Below, piece by piece: positions 7,946-28,217 of a stretch of DNA of 64,000 bases; position 1 is the stretch's first letter; the number at the start of each line of letters is the position of its first letter. The DNA comes from Marinomonas foliarum (GTDB lineage Bacteria > Pseudomonadota > Gammaproteobacteria > Pseudomonadales > Marinomonadaceae): assembly GCF_003337275.1 (NCBI RefSeq), contig NZ_QPJQ01000016.1, positions 1-64,000 on the forward strand, written 5' to 3'. The notes under the pieces were generated by a model that saw only the letters and a program-made list of their open reading frames with translations, did not search any database and had not been told where the DNA came from. Made by a program: the position numbers and the translations under genes.

Positions 7946-9088
7946 ATGGAAGAAATAGATAAGCATTCAATTAAAAAGAAAAACACCATTGTTATGTTGG
8001 CGATTGGCGTCGTTGTGGTATGCGTTGTTGTCTATATTTGGTGGTCAAAAATAGGACGATTCCACGAGGCAACAGAAGACGCTTATGTGTCAGGCAATAT
8101 TGTGAGTGTTATGTCGCAAATGTCTGGAACGGTTACGGATATCATGGTTGATAATACCAGCTTGGTGAGTGAGTCCGATCAATTAGTGAAAATCAATCCG
8201 GTGGATGCTCAGTTGGCTTTGCAACAGGCAGAGGCGAGCCTTGCGAGTACTATACGTTCTGTGCGCAATAGTTTTGCTTCTTTGGAAGAGCAGGAGGCTA
8301 ATGTGGGGTTGGCTAAAATCTCTTTGGATAAGGCGCAAAAAGATTATCAACGTCGAGTGAATTTAAAGAAGAATAACTTAATTTCTAATGAAGATTTAAG
8401 CCACTATGAAAGTACTTTAACGAGTGCTCAAGCTTCTTATAACCTTGCTCTGAAGTCATACGATACAAATAAAACTAAGGTCGACAATACGACGGTGCTG
8501 ACGCATCCCGATGTGTTAAAAGCGGAATCTGTTTTAAAAGCGGCTTGGTTAACGCTGAATCGTACTTCTATTCTTTCTCCTGCCAGTGGGTATATTGCGC
8601 AACGTAGTGTTCAAGTGGGCCAGCATGTGGCGGCAGGAACGACTTTGATGTCTGTTATTCCATTAAAAAATGTTTGGGTAACTGCGAATTTTAAAGAAAC
8701 ACAGCTTGGTAATATTCGTGCTGGACAGTCTGCCACTTTAACGTCTGATGTCTATGGTTCTAGTGTGATTTACCATGGCAAGGTAAAGGGAATAGAACCA
8801 GGAACGGGTAGTGCGTTTTCTTTGCTTCCCGCGTCTAACGCGACAGGAAACTGGATTAAGACGGTACAAAGGGTGCCGGTACGTATAGTGTTGGACCCTG
8901 CTGAATTAGAGGCGCACCCGCTGCGTCCTGGTTTGTCTATGAGTGTTACGGTCGATACCAATAATGCTGGCGCACCAGCATTAACACCTCTTGCAGATGT
9001 TCAGGCGCCTTGGCGTACTCATGTATTTGATCACAATGATGATGACGTCAATGTGATTATTCAAAAGATCATTAAAGAAAGTTTGTAA
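7946..9088 (+). CDS. HlyD/EmrA-type membrane fusion protein of a multidrug pump
   Basis: This 380-residue periplasmic adaptor has a cytoplasmic lysine-rich start, one membrane anchor (about 14-34) and a biotinyl-lipoyl half (VSGNIVSVMSQMSGTV). A long alpha-hairpin rich in Ala/Gln/Leu (about 90-190), the second lipoyl half (ILSPASGYIAQRSVQVGQ) and a beta-barrel (NVWVTANFKETQL) follow. This order is typical of EmrA. It should link the inner-membrane MFS pump encoded next to an outer-membrane TolC-type channel encoded elsewhere. The MFS gene begins directly after its stop codon. Confidence 0.9.
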   Translation: MEEIDKHSIKKKNTIVMLAIGVVVVCVVVYIWWSKIGRFHEATEDAYVSGNIVSVMSQMSGTVTDIMVDNTSLVSESDQLVKINPVDAQLALQQAEASLASTIRSVRNSFASLEEQEANVGLAKISLDKAQKDYQRRVNLKKNNLISNEDLSHYESTLTSAQASYNLALKSYDTNKTKVDNTTVLTHPDVLKAESVLKAAWLTLNRTSILSPASGYIAQRSVQVGQHVAAGTTLMSVIPLKNVWVTANFKETQLGNIRAGQSATLTSDVYGSSVIYHGKVKGIEPGTGSAFSLLPASNATGNWIKTVQRVPVRIVLDPAELEAHPLRPGLSMSVTVDTNNAGAPALTPLADVQAPWRTHVFDHNDDDVNVIIQKIIKESL

Positions 9089-9091
9089 GTG

Positions 9092-10657
9092 ATGATAAGT
9101 CGAATTAGTCGTCACAAATATGTGCCAGCGCCATCCCATGAATGGTTAATGCTGGCGACCATATTTCTACTTATGCTGCTGAACTTTTTACAGACCGGCA
9201 TGATTGTGTTTGCCGCTGCGCCATTGATGGGCGAACTTGGTGTTTCTCCACAAGAGTATAGTTTGGCAACCGCGTCGTATGCTTGTGTCGCTGTGGTTAC
9301 GATTTCAAAGCAGCGTTGGTTAGTTGAGCGAATGGGTTGGAAGCTCTACATATTGGGCTCCTTGTTCATCTTCTTTATAGGCTGTGTGGTAGGGTTTTAC
9401 TGTCGGAGCTTTGATGGCTTTTTGATTGGCTATGTCATCATGGGATTTGGCGGAGCTGCTTTCATGACGGGGGCTAGGGTTATTATTAATTTATTTCCCC
9501 CTAGCCTGATCCGCTTAACGGGTATTAAAGCATATGCTTATGGGTTGACCATAGGTTCGGCTCTTGCACCATTTTTAGCCGCGCATTTATTTATGACCGC
9601 TTCTTGGCACTATCTGTTTGTTATCTTGATGGTGGTGAGTTTATTGAGTGCAATTACGGCTGCTTTTTGTTTGCCGGGCATACCTGCAAAAGAAGAGATG
9701 CGTAGTCAAAGTCATCCTTATATTTTGATGGCCTTAGCTGCAGGTTCTTTTTTGGTTTTGTACGGCTTTCAGCACGGTAATTATGCTTTTTTTAGCAACA
9801 CTGTGTTGGTATGTGTGTTTTTATTGCTGGGCTTGAGCAGCCTGTATTATTTTTTACGCAGCATGGTGCGTCACCATGAAAATCGACCGTTATTGTCGAT
9901 GAAGTCGCTGTTTAGTAGCAAGTTGTACCGAAATGGCGTGACTGTGTTTTTTGTCTGTTATTTGATCATGGGGTCAAACAGTTATTTGATACCACAGATT
10001 ATGCAAAAAGGCCTTGGTTACGGCTGGAGCACGATTGGCAACTGGTACGCTCTTGGGCAAGTCGCGGGTGTTGTTGGGTTGTTCGTTAACATGCTTATTA
10101 TGCCTAAAAAGCCTCATGGAAAAAAATTCTATGTGGCAGGTTTTGTTTGCTTGATGGCGTACGGTTTTTTGATGATGAAGTTAACACCAACGACAAACTT
10201 ACAGACTTATGTGGTGCCAGCGCTATTCCTTTTTGTGTTTTTTACGGTGTGCGTACAAGGTACGGTGGCGGCGAAGGCGTTTGCCGAACTACAGCATGAT
10301 GAAACGGTCTTTTCTCACGCTCAGCAAGTGAAAAATATGGTGTCACAAATAAGTGTGGCGTTAGGAATATCCTTGGCAAGCATTGGGCTGCAGTGGCGTA
10401 CGACGGTGCATTATGGTGTGCTAAATCAGCATGTCGCAACGAACGACTCTATATTTGTAAGGACACTGAGTCAGATCAGTAATGTGTATAGCGCTCACAT
10501 GAGTAGCGATATGGCCACTAAGGCAGGTTTTGCATGGATTGCGGATCAAGTTCATCGTAATGCCGTGATATTGGCGGGGATTGATTATTTCTCTTTGCTA
10601 TTTGTTGCGGGGATTATCGGGGTGATTGTTATGGGGTGCCAAAAACGCCTAAACTAG
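9092..10657 (+). CDS. EmrB-type MFS transporter (DHA2 family)
   Basis: This protein of about 521 residues has many hydrophobic segments, consistent with the 14-helix DHA2 drug:H+ antiporters that pair with EmrA-type adaptors. The first helix follows a short N-terminal tail (HEWLMLATIFLLMLLNFLQT). Unlike textbook EmrB, the first loop motif is weakly conserved. The start may be GTG 9089 or the adjacent ATG 9092; the gene touches the stop of the adaptor, so the two are coupled. Substrates cannot be predicted from sequence. A LysR gene on the same strand follows closely. Confidence 0.85.
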   Translation: MISRISRHKYVPAPSHEWLMLATIFLLMLLNFLQTGMIVFAAAPLMGELGVSPQEYSLATASYACVAVVTISKQRWLVERMGWKLYILGSLFIFFIGCVVGFYCRSFDGFLIGYVIMGFGGAAFMTGARVIINLFPPSLIRLTGIKAYAYGLTIGSALAPFLAAHLFMTASWHYLFVILMVVSLLSAITAAFCLPGIPAKEEMRSQSHPYILMALAAGSFLVLYGFQHGNYAFFSNTVLVCVFLLLGLSSLYYFLRSMVRHHENRPLLSMKSLFSSKLYRNGVTVFFVCYLIMGSNSYLIPQIMQKGLGYGWSTIGNWYALGQVAGVVGLFVNMLIMPKKPHGKKFYVAGFVCLMAYGFLMMKLTPTTNLQTYVVPALFLFVFFTVCVQGTVAAKAFAELQHDETVFSHAQQVKNMVSQISVALGISLASIGLQWRTTVHYGVLNQHVATNDSIFVRTLSQISNVYSAHMSSDMATKAGFAWIADQVHRNAVILAGIDYFSLLFVAGIIGVIVMGCQKRLN

Positions 10658-14441: not shown

Positions 14442-15320
14442 ATGAAGCAAATTAGTACTCAACGACATCAATTAGCCGAAGGGCCATTTTGGAGTCAGTC
14501 AGAACAAGCTCTGTATTGGGTTGATATTCCTGCCTGCCAAGTGTGGCGCTGGCATCAAGAGTCTAATGAATACCAACATTGGACTTTGCCGAAAAAAGTG
14601 TCTGCGGTATTCACTACTCAAAGTGATCGATTGTTGGTGGCTTTGGCGGATTCTGTTGCGTATTTAGATAAAGCGACAGGTGAATTAGAACACTTATGTG
14701 ACTTAGATACCGATATTCCTGGTAACCGCAGTAACGATGCCAAATGTGACCCAAATGGTGTGTTATGGCTTGGTACCATGGACGATGCTGAAGAAAGTGC
14801 ATCGGGCCGCTTGTGGAAAATCACTCCTGAAGGCAAAAAGACACTCATGTTGGAGGGGGTTGGTATTTCCAATACACTGGCATGGGACGAGTCTCGAGGA
14901 CGTTTTTATTTTGGCGATTCAATGACTCGTAAAGTGCACGTTTTTCCGTATCCAGAGTTTTGTGATGTGCGCAGCCAAAACCCATTTTTTGAAGTGAAAG
15001 AAGGTATTGGGGCTGATGGCTCTTGTATTGATGCCGAAGCCTGTATATGGAACGCAAATTGGGATGGTTCACGCATTGTACGCTACAGCCCAGAAGGTGA
15101 AGTGTTGCAGACGATTGAGTTGCCGTTCTCTAAGCCGACAAGTTGTGTGTTTGGTGGTGCGGACGGCAATACACTGTTCATCACGTCGGCGAGTGTTGCC
15201 ACAAGTGAAAGCGAATTAGCAGAAAAGCCGTTGTCCGGTCATGTTGTGGCTATCGATTTAAAGGTCGCGCTGGGTCTTGATGTCACCGGTGAACCAAGTC
15301 AGCCATTTGCTGGATTTTAG
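14442..15320 (+). CDS. SMP-30/gluconolactonase-family lactonase
   Basis: This 292-residue six-bladed beta-propeller belongs to the SMP-30/LRE family. Metal-binding residues expected in this fold include the early Glu in LAEGPFW, Asn/Asp in GNRSNDAKCDPNG and Asp in DGSCIDAEACIW. Given the neighbours, it probably hydrolyses galactono-lactone to galactonate, the step before dehydration to KDGal. A GGAG ribosome site precedes it and a strong terminator follows, closing the operon. No galactonate dehydratase, galactose dehydrogenase or transporter is in the window. Confidence 0.83.
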   Translation: MKQISTQRHQLAEGPFWSQSEQALYWVDIPACQVWRWHQESNEYQHWTLPKKVSAVFTTQSDRLLVALADSVAYLDKATGELEHLCDLDTDIPGNRSNDAKCDPNGVLWLGTMDDAEESASGRLWKITPEGKKTLMLEGVGISNTLAWDESRGRFYFGDSMTRKVHVFPYPEFCDVRSQNPFFEVKEGIGADGSCIDAEACIWNANWDGSRIVRYSPEGEVLQTIELPFSKPTSCVFGGADGNTLFITSASVATSESELAEKPLSGHVVAIDLKVALGLDVTGEPSQPFAGF

Positions 15321-15352
15321 CTGTCTAGCGTATATAACTAATTTTTATAAAG

Positions 15353-15388
15353 AAAGCCCGCTCAAAGAGATTTGAGTGGGCTTTTTTA
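15353..15388 (+). terminator. Terminator of the dgo operon
   Basis: A 14-bp stem (15353-15366 with 15371-15384, one G-T pair) with a GAGA loop runs into a T-run. It separates the dgo operon from the Zur-boxed transporter genes. Confidence 0.88.
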
Positions 15389-15402
15389 TTGTGCAAAAAA
15401 AG

Positions 15403-15425
15403 GTAATGTTATATTATTACATTTT
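15403..15425. promoter_or_regulatory. Probable Zur (zinc uptake regulator) box
   Basis: The core 15405-15423 is a near-perfect inverted repeat centred on 15414, with one mismatched pair. It matches the gammaproteobacterial Zur consensus GAAATGTTATANTATAACATTTC at about 20 of 23 positions. It lies 23 bases before the preferred start codon of the substrate-binding gene, where a repressor would block transcription. This predicts induction of the importer when zinc is scarce. Confidence 0.78.
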
Positions 15426-15448
15426 TGTGTTTCATGGATAATACGGAT

Positions 15449-17005
15449 ATGAAAGTAATGCCTTTTTATAAACGAATACTATTTTGTAGTTCTATATTGT
15501 TTGGGCTGCTGGCGGTGACGGCCTGTTCGGGACCTACATCCTCTAACACTGTGTCGATTAGTGCGGCTTTTGAGTTTACCAGTCTAGATCCTTCAAAGAA
15601 CGGTTATATATTTAGTCGTATGCAAGTGGTGGAAACTTTGTTGGATGTTAATGAAAAGGGCTTGCTTATTCCGGCTTTGGCAAAGGATTGGCAGGTGAGT
15701 GAAGACGCAAGAACCTGGACGTTTGATTTGCGTGACGATGTTTACTTTCACGATGGTACTTTGATGAATGCTGAGGCTGTTGTTAATAGTCTTTTGATTG
15801 CTCAAACGAAGCATGGAGCATTGAGAAATGCGCCAATCAACAGTATTTCTGCTGCGGGAGATTCTTCTGTTGTTATTTCACTGTCTCGACCTTATACCTT
15901 GTTGGGGGCGGTGTTAGCGAATTATGCAAACGGCATTTTATCTCCTGCAGCGTATGGAAATGATGAGGAAGTCTTAGCGCTATCTGGCACAGGTCCATAT
16001 AAAGTTTTTCAGTTTGCTCCGCCGCATAAGCTTGTCGTTGAAAAGTTTGATGATTATTGGGGCAAAAAAGCCAGTATTCCTTTTGCTAGTTATTTAACCG
16101 GTCATCGTGCTGAAAGCCGTGTCTTACAGGCGAAAAGTGGTCAAGCGGACATTGTTTTTGGGTTAGATCCTGCCAGTCTACCCTCATTACAGCGCATGGA
16201 TATTTTAACTGTCTCATCGAACTCAATTCCTAGAACCATTGTATTGAAGTTAAACAGCGGACATCGCTTTTTGAATGATGTCCGTGCCCGTCAAGCGCTG
16301 AGCTTAGCTATTGATCGTAAAGGGATAGCAAAAGGTGTTCTGCGTATTCCTGGCTCTGAGGCCGAGCAGATATTGCCTGCCTCTATGTCTAATTGGCATT
16401 TGGATAATGTAACTAGTGAGACTGAATCGGAAGTTGGCACACCTGAGTCATTGTTGTCCTCTTTGGGTTGGAATAAGAATGCAAATGGTATGCTTGAGAG
16501 AGAGGGTGAATTATTTGAACTAACACTGATTACCTATGCTGATAGACCTGAATTAACAGCGGTAGCAACGGCGATCCAAGCCCAGTGGCAAGCTATTGGC
16601 GTGACAACTAAGGTAGAAATTACTAATTCAAGTGCGATAGCAATGGGCCATCAGGATGGTTCTTTAGAGGTGGCGCTTATCGCGCGGAATTATGGTTTTA
16701 TTGCTGACCCTTTGGGTGTGATGCTGTCTGATTTTGGATCGAATGGCGGTGGTGATTGGGGAGCGATGAATTGGAATAATAGCGCGTTAAGTGCCGATTT
16801 AATGACGTTAGAACAAACCTCCGATCCTGTATCATATAAAGAAATTGCCCAGCGCAGTGCTCAAATATTGTTTAACCAGCGACCGATGATTCCTGTTTCT
16901 TCCTACGTGCAGCAAACCTCTGTTAATAATCGCATTAAAGGATTTCGATACGACCCTTTTGAGCGCAGCTTTTATTTGAATGAAATGGAGTTTGTAAAAC
17001 CATGA
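15449..17005 (+). CDS. Substrate-binding lipoprotein of a peptide/nickel-type ABC importer
   Basis: This protein of about 518 residues belongs to solute-binding family 5 (DppA/OppA/NikA). It has a lipoprotein signal with a lipobox ending LAVTAC (Cys near residue 26), then the family segments LAKDWQVSEDARTWTFDLRD and GTGPYKVFQF. The overall layout resembles NikA more than OppA. The ATG at 15449 gives a clean signal peptide; open codons before it overlap the Zur box. The permease gene overlaps its 3' end by four bases. The Zur box suggests the cargo is a zinc or other metal chelate rather than a plain peptide, but this is an inference. Confidence 0.85.
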   Translation: MKVMPFYKRILFCSSILFGLLAVTACSGPTSSNTVSISAAFEFTSLDPSKNGYIFSRMQVVETLLDVNEKGLLIPALAKDWQVSEDARTWTFDLRDDVYFHDGTLMNAEAVVNSLLIAQTKHGALRNAPINSISAAGDSSVVISLSRPYTLLGAVLANYANGILSPAAYGNDEEVLALSGTGPYKVFQFAPPHKLVVEKFDDYWGKKASIPFASYLTGHRAESRVLQAKSGQADIVFGLDPASLPSLQRMDILTVSSNSIPRTIVLKLNSGHRFLNDVRARQALSLAIDRKGIAKGVLRIPGSEAEQILPASMSNWHLDNVTSETESEVGTPESLLSSLGWNKNANGMLEREGELFELTLITYADRPELTAVATAIQAQWQAIGVTTKVEITNSSAIAMGHQDGSLEVALIARNYGFIADPLGVMLSDFGSNGGGDWGAMNWNNSALSADLMTLEQTSDPVSYKEIAQRSAQILFNQRPMIPVSSYVQQTSVNNRIKGFRYDPFERSFYLNEMEFVKP

Positions 17006-17934
17006 AGGCCATGCTGTTAGAAAGGCTTCTGCAGCTGATTACTGTGGTGTGGGGGGTTGGAACTTTGACCTTTATTTTGATGCGTTCATTACCTGGTGAT
17101 ATGGCTTATCGAATAGCTGCCAGCCGATATGGACAAGACAATGTAAATTCTGAAGCTGCGGCATTGGTGCGCGAAGAATTACAGTTAGATCAAAGCCCAT
17201 GGGTGGCATATTGGCACTGGTTGACGGATCTTCTTCAATTCAAGCTAGGTGACTCGTTAGTGAGTGGCTTGCCAGTGATGGATTCTGTCCAGCATATGCT
17301 GGGGCATTCATTGTTGTTGGCTCTTTCTGGGCTGATGTTATCTGTTTTAATTGCGGTGCCACTGGGGTTACTTAGTGCATGGCGAGGTAATCCGCTGGAC
17401 TCTGTCTTAATGGGATTATCGAGTGCGATTCGTGCTATGCCTGTTTTTGTTGTTGGTGTATTGCTGCTTTTATTCTTTGCTTTGCATTGGGGGCTATTCC
17501 CGGTCGCCGGTTTTGGAACTCCTGCCCACCTTGTTTTGCCTGCTCTTACTTTGGCTATTAGCTTGGCTGCAGTGTCGAATCGCGTGGTAAGAGACTCTGC
17601 TAAGCATACTTTTCAGGCTGCTTTTTATCGTTTTTCTCGGGTAAAGGGCTTGTCTGAATGGCAAACCTTTCGACAGCACGGTGTGCGTAATATTGCTGTG
17701 CCTGTGGTGGCATTTTTTGGCATTCAATTGGTGAGTATGATCGAAGGGATTGTAATGATTGAATCATTGTTCTCTTGGCCAGGAATAGGTCATGGTTTGG
17801 CCCATGCTATTTTTGCTCGCGATATTCCAGTAATTCAAGGATCCGCTTTAGTTATGGGGGTATTGTTCGTTTTGCTTAACACCTTGGTTGATATTATTTG
17901 TTTATGGATTGACCCAAGGGGAGCGAAAGCATGA
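17002..17934 (+). CDS. ABC importer permease, NikB/DppB type
   Basis: This 310-residue inner-membrane permease has the first helix at the N-terminus (LLQLITVVWGVGTLTFILMR), several further helices and the EAA loop typical of the family (RVVRDSAKHTFQAAFYRFSRVKGLSEWQTFRQH). The SLFSWPGIGHGLAHAIFARD motif near the C-terminus is characteristic of DppB/NikB. It overlaps the binding-protein gene and the next permease gene by four bases each, so translation is coupled. It should form the channel with the second permease. Confidence 0.92.
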   Translation: MKAMLLERLLQLITVVWGVGTLTFILMRSLPGDMAYRIAASRYGQDNVNSEAAALVREELQLDQSPWVAYWHWLTDLLQFKLGDSLVSGLPVMDSVQHMLGHSLLLALSGLMLSVLIAVPLGLLSAWRGNPLDSVLMGLSSAIRAMPVFVVGVLLLLFFALHWGLFPVAGFGTPAHLVLPALTLAISLAAVSNRVVRDSAKHTFQAAFYRFSRVKGLSEWQTFRQHGVRNIAVPVVAFFGIQLVSMIEGIVMIESLFSWPGIGHGLAHAIFARDIPVIQGSALVMGVLFVLLNTLVDIICLWIDPRGAKA

Positions 17935-18716
17935 TGAAGATGAAAAAATCCCAATGGGTTGGTTTGGCTATCTTATTAGCGTTGTTGGCGTTTTCACTGG
18001 GGGGGATGGCTTTTTCTCCTTATAGTATTTCTCAGCAAGATTTGAATGCCATTATGGAATCGCCTTCTGCAATCCATTGGCTTGGTACTGATCATTTTGG
18101 TCGCAGTATGTTTACACGTATGGCGCATGCTGTTGGTCTGTCTTTCGGGTTAAGTCTGTTGTGTATGTTCACTTCTTCACTGGTTGGAACGGCATTTGGT
18201 GTCTGGTCTGTTTGGGGAGGCAAGAAGGTTGATGTTGCCATGGGAATTGTGGTGAATATACTCCTTGCTTTACCGGGTTTGGTGGTTGTATTGCTGTTTG
18301 CTGCGATCGCTCCGGGTTCATTCTTGGTGTTGTATTTGGCGATTTCTTTGGTGCAGTGGGTGGAGTATTTCCGAGTAGTGCGTGCTGTCACACAAGGCGT
18401 AATACAAAGCCCTGCAAGACAATCGTCACGGATGATGGGCTTTGGCCGTTGGTATCAGTTTAAGCGTCATATTTGGCCAGCTATTTCTCCATCAGTATTT
18501 ACCTTGGCAGCCTTTGGTGGCGCGAATGCGATTTTAACCATGGCATCATTGGGCTTTGTGTATGTTGGTATTCAACCTCCGCTGGCTGAGCTTGGCTTAA
18601 TGACGGTTGAATTGTTTCCGTATTACAGCGAAGCGCCTTGGTTACTCGCTCAGCCCTTGGTAGTGATTGCTTTGATGGTGTTTGCATTTCATTTATTGGC
18701 AGGGAAACGAGCATGA
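17931..18716 (+). CDS. ABC importer permease, NikC/DppC type
   Basis: This 261-residue permease has the DppC/NikC signature HWLGTDHFGRSMFTRM after the first helix and an EAA loop (QSSRMMGFGRWYQFKRHIWP). PPLAELGLM lies near the end. It is shorter than typical NikC/DppC (270-300). It overlaps the upstream permease by four bases and the ATPase gene by four (ATGA), so the whole set is one transcription unit. Confidence 0.92.
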   Translation: MMKMKKSQWVGLAILLALLAFSLGGMAFSPYSISQQDLNAIMESPSAIHWLGTDHFGRSMFTRMAHAVGLSFGLSLLCMFTSSLVGTAFGVWSVWGGKKVDVAMGIVVNILLALPGLVVVLLFAAIAPGSFLVLYLAISLVQWVEYFRVVRAVTQGVIQSPARQSSRMMGFGRWYQFKRHIWPAISPSVFTLAAFGGANAILTMASLGFVYVGIQPPLAELGLMTVELFPYYSEAPWLLAQPLVVIALMVFAFHLLAGKRA

Positions 18717-20101
18717 GCGTATTACTGAAATTAACCAATGTGGCTGTTTATGTGGGCGACACTTGTTTGTTGGAGCCAATGTCGTTGGAGCTAAAGCAAG
18801 GCGAACCACTTACTATTCTGGGCCAAACTGGGTCCGGTAAGAGTTTACTGGCACAAGCCATTATGGGTCTATTACCTGATGGTTTAACGGTGTCTGGTGA
18901 AATAGAAACTTTTGGTAAAGTGATGACGATTGAAGAGCGTCAAGCTTTGTGGGGACGTGAAATGGTCATGTTGCCGCAAGAGCCTTGGCATTCGCTGGAC
19001 CCTTTGATGAAAGGGGTTGATCAAGTTAAAGAGGTTTATCGGTTTGTACGTGGCAATAGTGCAGAAATGTCGCTTGCTATGGCGGAAGACGATCTAGGAC
19101 AGGTCGGTTTGGTAGGTAACGGCCATAAACGTCCTGATGAACTGTCGGGAGGTATGGCACAACGTCTCGCGATTACTGCGGCCACTGCTGGTGGGGCGCA
19201 TGTGATTTTGGCTGATGAGCCAACCAAAGGGCTTGATGTGTCTCGTCGTGATGGCATTGTGCAGCTGCTCCAGGCCCGTTCGAATCTAGGCAGTTTGCTG
19301 ACGATTACTCACGATGTGTCGGTAGCCCGTCAGTTAGGCGGTTTGCTATTAGTAATGAAAGAGGGGTGCTTGGTGGAGAAAGGTGAGGCGGCAAATCTTC
19401 TGGATAGTCCTCAAGACCCTTATACCCGAGAACTTATTGCAGCAGAGCCGAGTGCGTGGTCAGATATTGCTCCGCCTATTAGGCGTGCAAGCTCGCACGA
19501 CCTTCTTGTTGCAGATAAGTTAACTTTAGAACGTGGAGGGCGCGTCTTATTTGAAGGTTTGTCATTTACCATCAAGCAAGGAGAAGTGGTTGGCATTGTC
19601 GGTGACAGTGGCTGCGGTAAATCATCGCTTGGCGATGCATTGCTTAATTTGTTGCCTGTTTCGGCTGGCAAGCTTACTCGTTTTCATAAAAACGCTAAGC
19701 CATATCAATGGCTGAAATTGTATCAAGATCCACCATCGGCGTTTTCATCTAGTGTGTCTCTGGGGCAATTATTGGATGATTTAGTACTTTTGCATGATAT
19801 TGATAAAGCGCGTATTGCTCCTTTGATGACTAAATTGAAACTACCAGCAGGGATTTTAGAACGTAATTGTTTGTCGGTATCCGGTGGTGAATTACAACGC
19901 TTTGCCATATTACGCGCCTTGTTGCTTGATCCTGTTTTTCTGTTCGCAGATGAGCCGACATCACGTCTAGACCCGATTACGGCTAAGGAGGTAACGCAGT
20001 TATTGGTAGAGTTGGCCACTGAGGCGAATTGCGCGGTGTTGTTAGTGAGTCATGACCCTGACCTTATTCAGCGAACTTGTCATCAAGTTATTGCTTTATA
20101 A
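18713..20101 (+). CDS. Fused two-domain ABC ATPase (NikD-NikE / DppD-DppF type)
   Basis: This protein of about 462 residues carries two complete nucleotide-binding domains. The first has Walker A GQTGSGKS, signature LSGGMAQRLAI and Walker B VILADEPTKGLD. The second has Walker A GDSGCGKSS, signature VSGGELQRFAI and Walker B VFLFADEPTSRLD. In NikDE and DppDF these are separate proteins; here they form one chain. Both halves look catalytically intact. The ATG at 18713 overlaps the permease stop. A weak hairpin (about 20130-20149) lies after the gene. Confidence 0.92.
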   Translation: MSVLLKLTNVAVYVGDTCLLEPMSLELKQGEPLTILGQTGSGKSLLAQAIMGLLPDGLTVSGEIETFGKVMTIEERQALWGREMVMLPQEPWHSLDPLMKGVDQVKEVYRFVRGNSAEMSLAMAEDDLGQVGLVGNGHKRPDELSGGMAQRLAITAATAGGAHVILADEPTKGLDVSRRDGIVQLLQARSNLGSLLTITHDVSVARQLGGLLLVMKEGCLVEKGEAANLLDSPQDPYTRELIAAEPSAWSDIAPPIRRASSHDLLVADKLTLERGGRVLFEGLSFTIKQGEVVGIVGDSGCGKSSLGDALLNLLPVSAGKLTRFHKNAKPYQWLKLYQDPPSAFSSSVSLGQLLDDLVLLHDIDKARIAPLMTKLKLPAGILERNCLSVSGGELQRFAILRALLLDPVFLFADEPTSRLDPITAKEVTQLLVELATEANCAVLLVSHDPDLIQRTCHQVIAL

Positions 20102-28119: not shown

Positions 28120-28217
28120 AAGGTTTTTCCTTATTTAGCATTGATATTTTTGCTTTCGACCAAATTAATGGATGTTATACTATTACAGTGAAAAAAGTCC
28201 CTAGTAGAGAAGATGTG

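Follow-up and report, generated by a model that had tools for sequence, protein, structure and literature searches.

A family-5 ABC importer operon behind a predicted Zur box in Marinomonas foliarum: a likely zinc-starvation transporter and its possible cargo

What does a transporter of the peptide/nickel family import when its genes lie directly behind what looks like an operator for the zinc regulator Zur? This question is raised by a four-gene ATP-binding cassette (ABC) importer operon in Marinomonas foliarum (GCF_003337275.1), which we analysed within positions 1-64,000 of contig NZ_QPJQ01000016.1, a 64,000-nucleotide stretch hereafter called the window. We consider, with a probability of about 0.6, that the operon is a Zur-repressed, zinc-starvation family-5 importer, likely of a small zinc chelate that the cell does not make itself. 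Of the parts of this reading, Zur control is strongly supported by genome comparison, while a zinc chelate is the likeliest cargo at moderate confidence only, because of the profile, tree, fold and residue comparisons described below. The locus is laid out as follows.

15353..15389, + strand: intrinsic-terminator-like hairpin with a T-run, read from the sequence, which seems to close the upstream transcription unit
15403..15425, no strand assigned: predicted Zur box (operator), GTAATGTTATATTATTACATTTT, called from its consensus match, shuffles and conservation before orthologues
15449..17005, + strand: family-5 solute-binding protein, PF00496 (SBP_bac_5) at 236 bits; ATG at 15449 the most likely start, 15434 possible
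17002..17934, + strand: permease 1, NikB/DppB type, PF00528 (BPD_transp_1) and PF19300
17931..18716, + strand: permease 2, NikC/DppC type, PF00528 (BPD_transp_1)
18713..20101, + strand: fused double ATPase, NikDE-like single chain, with two ABC_tran stretches (Pfam)

An earlier reading, made from the sequence only, had described a binding protein, two permeases and a fused ATPase overlapping by four bases behind the box and had assigned them to the peptide/nickel-type importers. Coordinates and Pfam agree on both counts, as every junction among the four genes is a four-base overlap, and SBP_bac_5, two BPD_transp_1 permeases and an ABC ATPase together place the operon in family 5/cluster C. By NCBIfam the first half of the fused ATPase is NikD-like and the second NikE-like, and the binding protein starts with a signal peptide with, by eye, a lipobox-like LAVTAC. 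The terminator-like hairpin is absent from the output of a simple terminator scan, and a simple scan of 15250-15600 found no consensus sigma-70 promoter.

The box was scored against GAAATGTTATAnTATAACATTTC, which we take to be the 23-base gammaproteobacterial Zur consensus. GTAATGTTATATTATTACATTTT differs from it at three of the 22 fixed positions, giving 20/23 when N is counted, and is the sole site in the window at up to three mismatches, with no such site in 100 dinucleotide-preserving shuffles of the window; the match of about 20 of 23 claimed for 15403-15425 was thus borne out. When the two central bases are left free and as many as three mismatches are allowed, the 23-mer occurs at two places in the 4.16-Mb genome and a backward control pattern at none. 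The description of the box as nearly perfectly palindromic was generous, since by eye 8/11 arm positions pair, although the palindrome is a good one.

We observe that the box is conserved with the operon. Of 48 genomes of the genus, 38 encode the binding protein (called at E <= 1e-40), and in 33 of these 38 loci the core box ATGTTATAnnATAACAT is found no more than 250 bp before the aligned start when 13 or more of its 15 fixed positions are required to match. The same score is reached in 2 of 551 control windows from the same loci, which include the places of boxes belonging to a candidate small RNA (see below). Three further genomes (G007, G012 and G025) carry the core box ~580 bp upstream of the binding-protein gene, with a small His-rich reading frame in between. 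In the remaining two (G008 and G014), the 750 bp upstream are free of a box, and the 4.5 kb fetched contain no frame for a permease or an ATPase behind the binding-protein gene; these loci (L047 and L045, respectively) are operon remnants in which the binding-protein gene is still open. The binding-protein gene of G031 contains an in-frame stop, and in G003 a transposase-like gene (by eye) splits the binding-protein and permease genes. The surroundings of the operon vary by species, with respiratory-oxidase genes (by eye) in several for example, and the box travels with the operon.

The host genome also shows a probable zinc regulon. Among its two Fur-family genes is a zur-like one, encoding a 166-amino-acid protein whose best NCBIfam match is Zur (121 bits, under the cut-off of 167) and whose gene clusters with znuC, znuB and a NicO gene, the last of which has a box-like site 31 bases upstream. 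NCBIfam searches combined with the genome box search placed boxes at up to two mismatches upstream of znuA (314 bits, cut-off 268), the zinc GTPase gene zigA (690 bits, cut-off 600) and an aztD-like gene (370 bits, under the cut-off of 400). A near-consensus Zur box also lies 26 bases upstream of a Fec-type ABC operon of ATPase, binding protein and permease on another contig (L009:157-3120, contig C33), which is a candidate, from sequence, for a second importer of a zinc complex. The expectation that the genome would hold a zur gene and further Zur boxes was therefore met by a zur-like gene and by boxes before znuA, NicO-zur-znuCB, zigA, the aztD-like gene and the Fec-type operon. In the genome search at two mismatches, the 17-mer gave 13 and 16 sites versus 19 and 15 for the backward control. 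As the control gives as many matches, most other two-mismatch sites in the genome are probably due to chance, and single sites of this kind were therefore counted only with an adjoining zinc gene.

Outside Marinomonas, a scan of named bacterial genomes was followed up in the best 80 of 194 candidate loci, of which 54 are non-Marinomonas and 53 have enough upstream DNA for scoring. When 11, 12 or 13 of the 15 core positions are the minimum, 42/53, 38/53 and 20/53 loci qualify, compared with 31/426, 19/426 and 15/426 control windows upstream of other frames in the same loci; all three thresholds are given since no cut had been set in advance. These loci are not independent, as the boxes of the many Rhizobiaceae among them are near-identical and the Maribrevibacterium locus is also one of the 38 of the genus. 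No box was found within 250 bp in loci including those of Ferrimonas, Shewanella, Desulfobulbus, Sagittula and Grimontia, and in Grimontia the box lies further upstream, before a small gene. The binding protein was detected in 17/398 genomes of an even phylum sample (E <= 1e-85), three of them from the Marinomonas group, and in 130 plasmid records (1e-60).

Zinc genes adjoin the operon in some of these relatives. Both plasmids of Paracoccus aestuarii have annotated znu genes after it, one with an annotated Fur-family regulator between (the gene table being incomplete), and BLAST to the host-genome proteins identified adjoining znuA-, znuC- and Zur-like genes in Primorskyibacter and a Zur-like gene in a metagenome-assembled genome (MAG) of Granulosicoccaceae. 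In Pantoea ananatis zigA is divergent from the operon, and in Pseudosulfitobacter a gene for a GTP-binding protein (ZigA-like by eye) and one small gene precede it, resembling the published Paracoccus denitrificans operon pden1338-1344. At most other non-Marinomonas loci none of the zinc genes looked for adjoins the operon.

That P. denitrificans operon provides an experimental precedent. Expression of pden1338-1344 is reported to rise 8.6- to 16-fold on zinc depletion, with Zur motifs at pden1338 and pden1341 and binding of Zur to pden1341 promoter DNA in an electrophoretic mobility shift assay (PMC5387054). The same study treats pden1341-1344 as a cluster C ABC transporter without assigned cargo within the seven-gene operon, and calls direct control of such a transporter by Zur 'somewhat unusual' (PMC5387054). 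It resembles the M. foliarum operon in layout, with genes for a binding protein and two permeases, one gene for the ATPase and, a short way upstream, a Zur motif, and differs in that a COG0523 gene and two small genes stand in front, whereas in the host zigA lies elsewhere with its own box. The likeness of pden1341 is one of layout, with the P. aestuarii homologue standing in for kinship of sequence. Vibrio cholerae has a four-gene ABC transporter, vca1098-vca1101, whose Zur box was tested with a reporter (PMC8248653), and here the likeness, a four-gene ABC transporter plus Zur box, is by description only. We also looked to the Vibrio che-3 neighbourhood for a possible link between vca1098-1101 and the host family, and found no chemotaxis cluster beside the operon in five Vibrio loci (by eye and annotation).

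Because a zur-like gene is present, zinc genes carry boxes, the box is conserved with the operon and the Paracoccus transporter is bound by Zur, comparison strongly supports Zur control of the operon, with repression itself being what we infer. When zinc is sufficient, zinc-loaded Zur would occupy the box, which lies behind the terminator of the upstream unit and ahead of the start codon, and block transcription. When zinc is low, Zur would be released, and the binding protein (probably lipid-anchored), two permeases and fused ATPase would be made together. The binding protein would then capture a small periplasmic zinc chelate, which the ATPase would drive inward, the importer acting beside ZnuABC. 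This chelate would most likely come from other organisms or arise with ligands from the environment, and not be an opine of the cell's own making. Here, cargo and direction of transport are likewise ones that we infer.

How far does the binding protein itself speak to the cargo? Its best NCBIfam matches, like those of the permeases, are nickel models, all far under their cut-offs, with the two NikA models giving the binding protein 214 of 600 (NF045468) and 170 of 393 (TIGR02294) bits, the CntA model 119 bits against a cut-off of 800 and the DppA model 77 of 1005. In a 28-protein tree, which has several long branches and in which the CntA and Bacillus halodurans rows are partial stretches, we observe that the binding protein and its relatives form one separate clade (100/100), adjoined by a nickel-type protein of B. 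halodurans (99/98), with NikA and CntA beyond. The P. aestuarii (~42% identical) and Pseudosulfitobacter homologues fall inside this clade. An AlphaFold model (mean pLDDT, the predicted local distance difference test, 77.5) found as its top fold match CntA with staphylopine and cobalt, followed by forms of NikA. Across 20 family members 57 columns are invariant, among which Arg220, Lys267, Arg299, Trp316, His401, Asp428 and Trp437 are polar or aromatic positions absent from all eight references. A functional role of His401 is only a guess, given that model confidence is <50 at 395-402.

CntABCDF of Staphylococcus aureus imports the metallophore staphylopine, has separate CntD and CntF ATPases and is linked to opine synthesis genes. 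It belongs to the same transporter superfamily as the host importer and shares its fold, and CntA lies outside the clade of the host binding protein. Escherichia coli NikABCDE is alike in its order of binding protein, permease, permease and ATPase, in overlaps of up to four bases and in fold, but it has two ATPase genes followed by nikR, and NikA His416 is not kept in the host protein.

Several observations weigh against import of a zinc chelate under Zur control. The proposed comparison with NikA, CntA and DppA gives the binding protein a clade of its own, but the split that joins its clade with NikA and CntA against the peptide carriers has values of just 83/60, which is weak, and peptide carriers follow at similar scores in the fold search, with the nonapeptide carrier AppA at rank 22. 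None of His416, Arg97, Trp100 and Arg137, which we take to be the metal- or ligand-binding positions of NikA, is kept in the host binding protein, where glycine aligns with His416 and alanine with Arg137; Arg137 is kept in the Rhizobium, Paracoccus and Pantoea relatives. Many alphaproteobacterial sites score no better by the 23-base gammaproteobacterial consensus than the best of 60 shuffles. A TonB receptor sharing the box had also been suggested; around 20 of the 21 box loci, none of the reading frames that begin no more than 300 bases away looks like one by eye, no family-level TonB search having been made, so that nothing here points to a route across the outer membrane for a bulky chelate.

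The alternatives differ in what the importer would carry. The sequence-only reading had looked to the opine-metallophore importers of the CntABCDF type. Under this explanation the opine would be synthesised from genes at another place in the genome or acquired from neighbours. The staphylopine-bound CntA at the head of the fold matches, the pairing of CntA with NikA not far from the host clade, and the opine clusters that accompany dipeptide-type importers in some bacteria (PMC7438024) all fit such a cargo. However, the opine dehydrogenase family PF10100 is absent from the host genome and from 38/38 genomes of the genus with the binding protein, in a search of the 48 genus genomes (non-genus loci were covered by a listing of recurring neighbour clusters). 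Its one occurrence, in G018, is in a genome without the binding protein at 1e-40, and there a Zur box and a Fec-type importer accompany a CntL-like gene (117 bits, cut-off 350), PF10100 and an EamA-like gene (by eye) at L076:8035-14156. Opine metallophore synthesis was therefore rejected as a partner of the operon, and with both CntA and NikA cut-offs missed by far we regard an opine cargo as very unlikely, although foreign opines might be pirated; what stands of the proposal is the zinc chelate, which is possible and our best guess, without the opine form.

The box could instead serve an importer of nutrients, such as peptides, amino acids or another organic solute, brought in while zinc enzymes fail, with no metal carried. 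Zur regulons include replacements for zinc-dependent steps, family 5 contains many peptide carriers, and DppA-type profiles and structures also match the binding protein; on the other hand, zinc-handling genes (zur, znuA, zigA) neighbour the operon in several relatives, and some have a gene for a His-rich, DUF2607-like protein placed between the box and the binding-protein gene. We hold this explanation to be unlikely. An importer of nickel or cobalt that came under Zur through metal crosstalk would account for the nickel models being the best NCBIfam matches of binding protein and permeases and for the NicO gene within the zur-znuCB cluster, but those scores lie far under their cut-offs (214 of 600 and 170 of 393), the NikA nickel ligand His416 is missing, and nickel is reported to have no effect on binding of Zur to DNA in Paracoccus (PMC5387054), making such a cargo highly improbable.

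Uptake of a small zinc chelate under Zur control thus remains our preferred explanation. Beyond this locus, there may be a separate, widespread class of Zur-controlled family-5 importers of zinc with a foreign small ligand in gamma- and alphaproteobacteria, joined in one Marinomonas set by a Zur-repressed small RNA, a tentative proposal to which we give somewhat less than an even chance. The kind is already known from one experiment, that in Paracoccus, and what is new here is its breadth, the conserved box and the lack of opine genes in Marinomonas. A single clade spanning many Proteobacteria unites these operons, the majority of which have a Zur-like box, and in Marinomonas they are not paired with opine genes; the cargo therefore becomes a defined question about one binding-protein family with specific invariant residues, His401 among them. 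Should these importers carry zinc chelates, they would constitute another zinc import route beside ZnuABC in marine and plant-associated bacteria.

The His-rich frames near the operon recur in other genera. That of G007 matches Pfam DUF2607 at 24.3 bits (cut-off 24), and similar frames in Grimontia and an Enterovibrio MAG reach 19.7 and 19.4 bits, under the cut-off. These probably secreted, DUF2607-like frames are located at L043:3918-4217, at ~7484-7792 of L121 and L122 and at ~176-466 of L128; in some Marinomonas and in Grimontia they separate the box from the binding-protein gene, and in the Enterovibrio MAG the frame precedes that gene.

A second place in the window was considered as a Zur target. 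At 28172-28188, directly before ribA, is a box-like site with two mismatches to the 17-mer core, and for V. cholerae this gene is given as one of the targets of Zur (PMC8248653). The gene is present in 48 genomes, from which 30 loci were fetched and two skipped for want of a located start; upstream of the gene, 12/15 or more was reached in just 4/28 scored loci of the genus, the window's own included, and we therefore treat ribA as unproven.

Finally, a candidate Zur-controlled small RNA adjoins the transporter or its remnant in 6/48 genomes of the genus, at the following places.

L042:1272-1562, - strand: candidate small RNA
L050:1162-1442, - strand: candidate small RNA
L045:4202-4489, - strand: candidate small RNA
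L047:4206-4492, - strand: candidate small RNA
L082:3680-3971, - strand: candidate small RNA
L081:8261-8510, + strand: candidate small RNA

Headed by a strong Zur box, it has two short stretches that are conserved, a pair of long hairpins and a terminator. The candidate was not found in the host genome, and no Rfam match lies over it in the four loci searched. The stems are not in register in a MAFFT alignment, and the hairpin-linker core alone folds no better than mononucleotide shuffles (z +1.2 to -1.6). We judge the chance that a Zur-repressed small RNA exists in this one Marinomonas set to be roughly even. Next to the candidate RNA in L081, at 8617-9495, a GGDEF protein is encoded with a weak match to the CZB zinc-binding domain (19.5 bits, cut-off 29.4; the scan covered L081 only), and by eye frames with a start similar to that of the GGDEF protein lie downstream of the candidate RNA in L042, L045 and L047.

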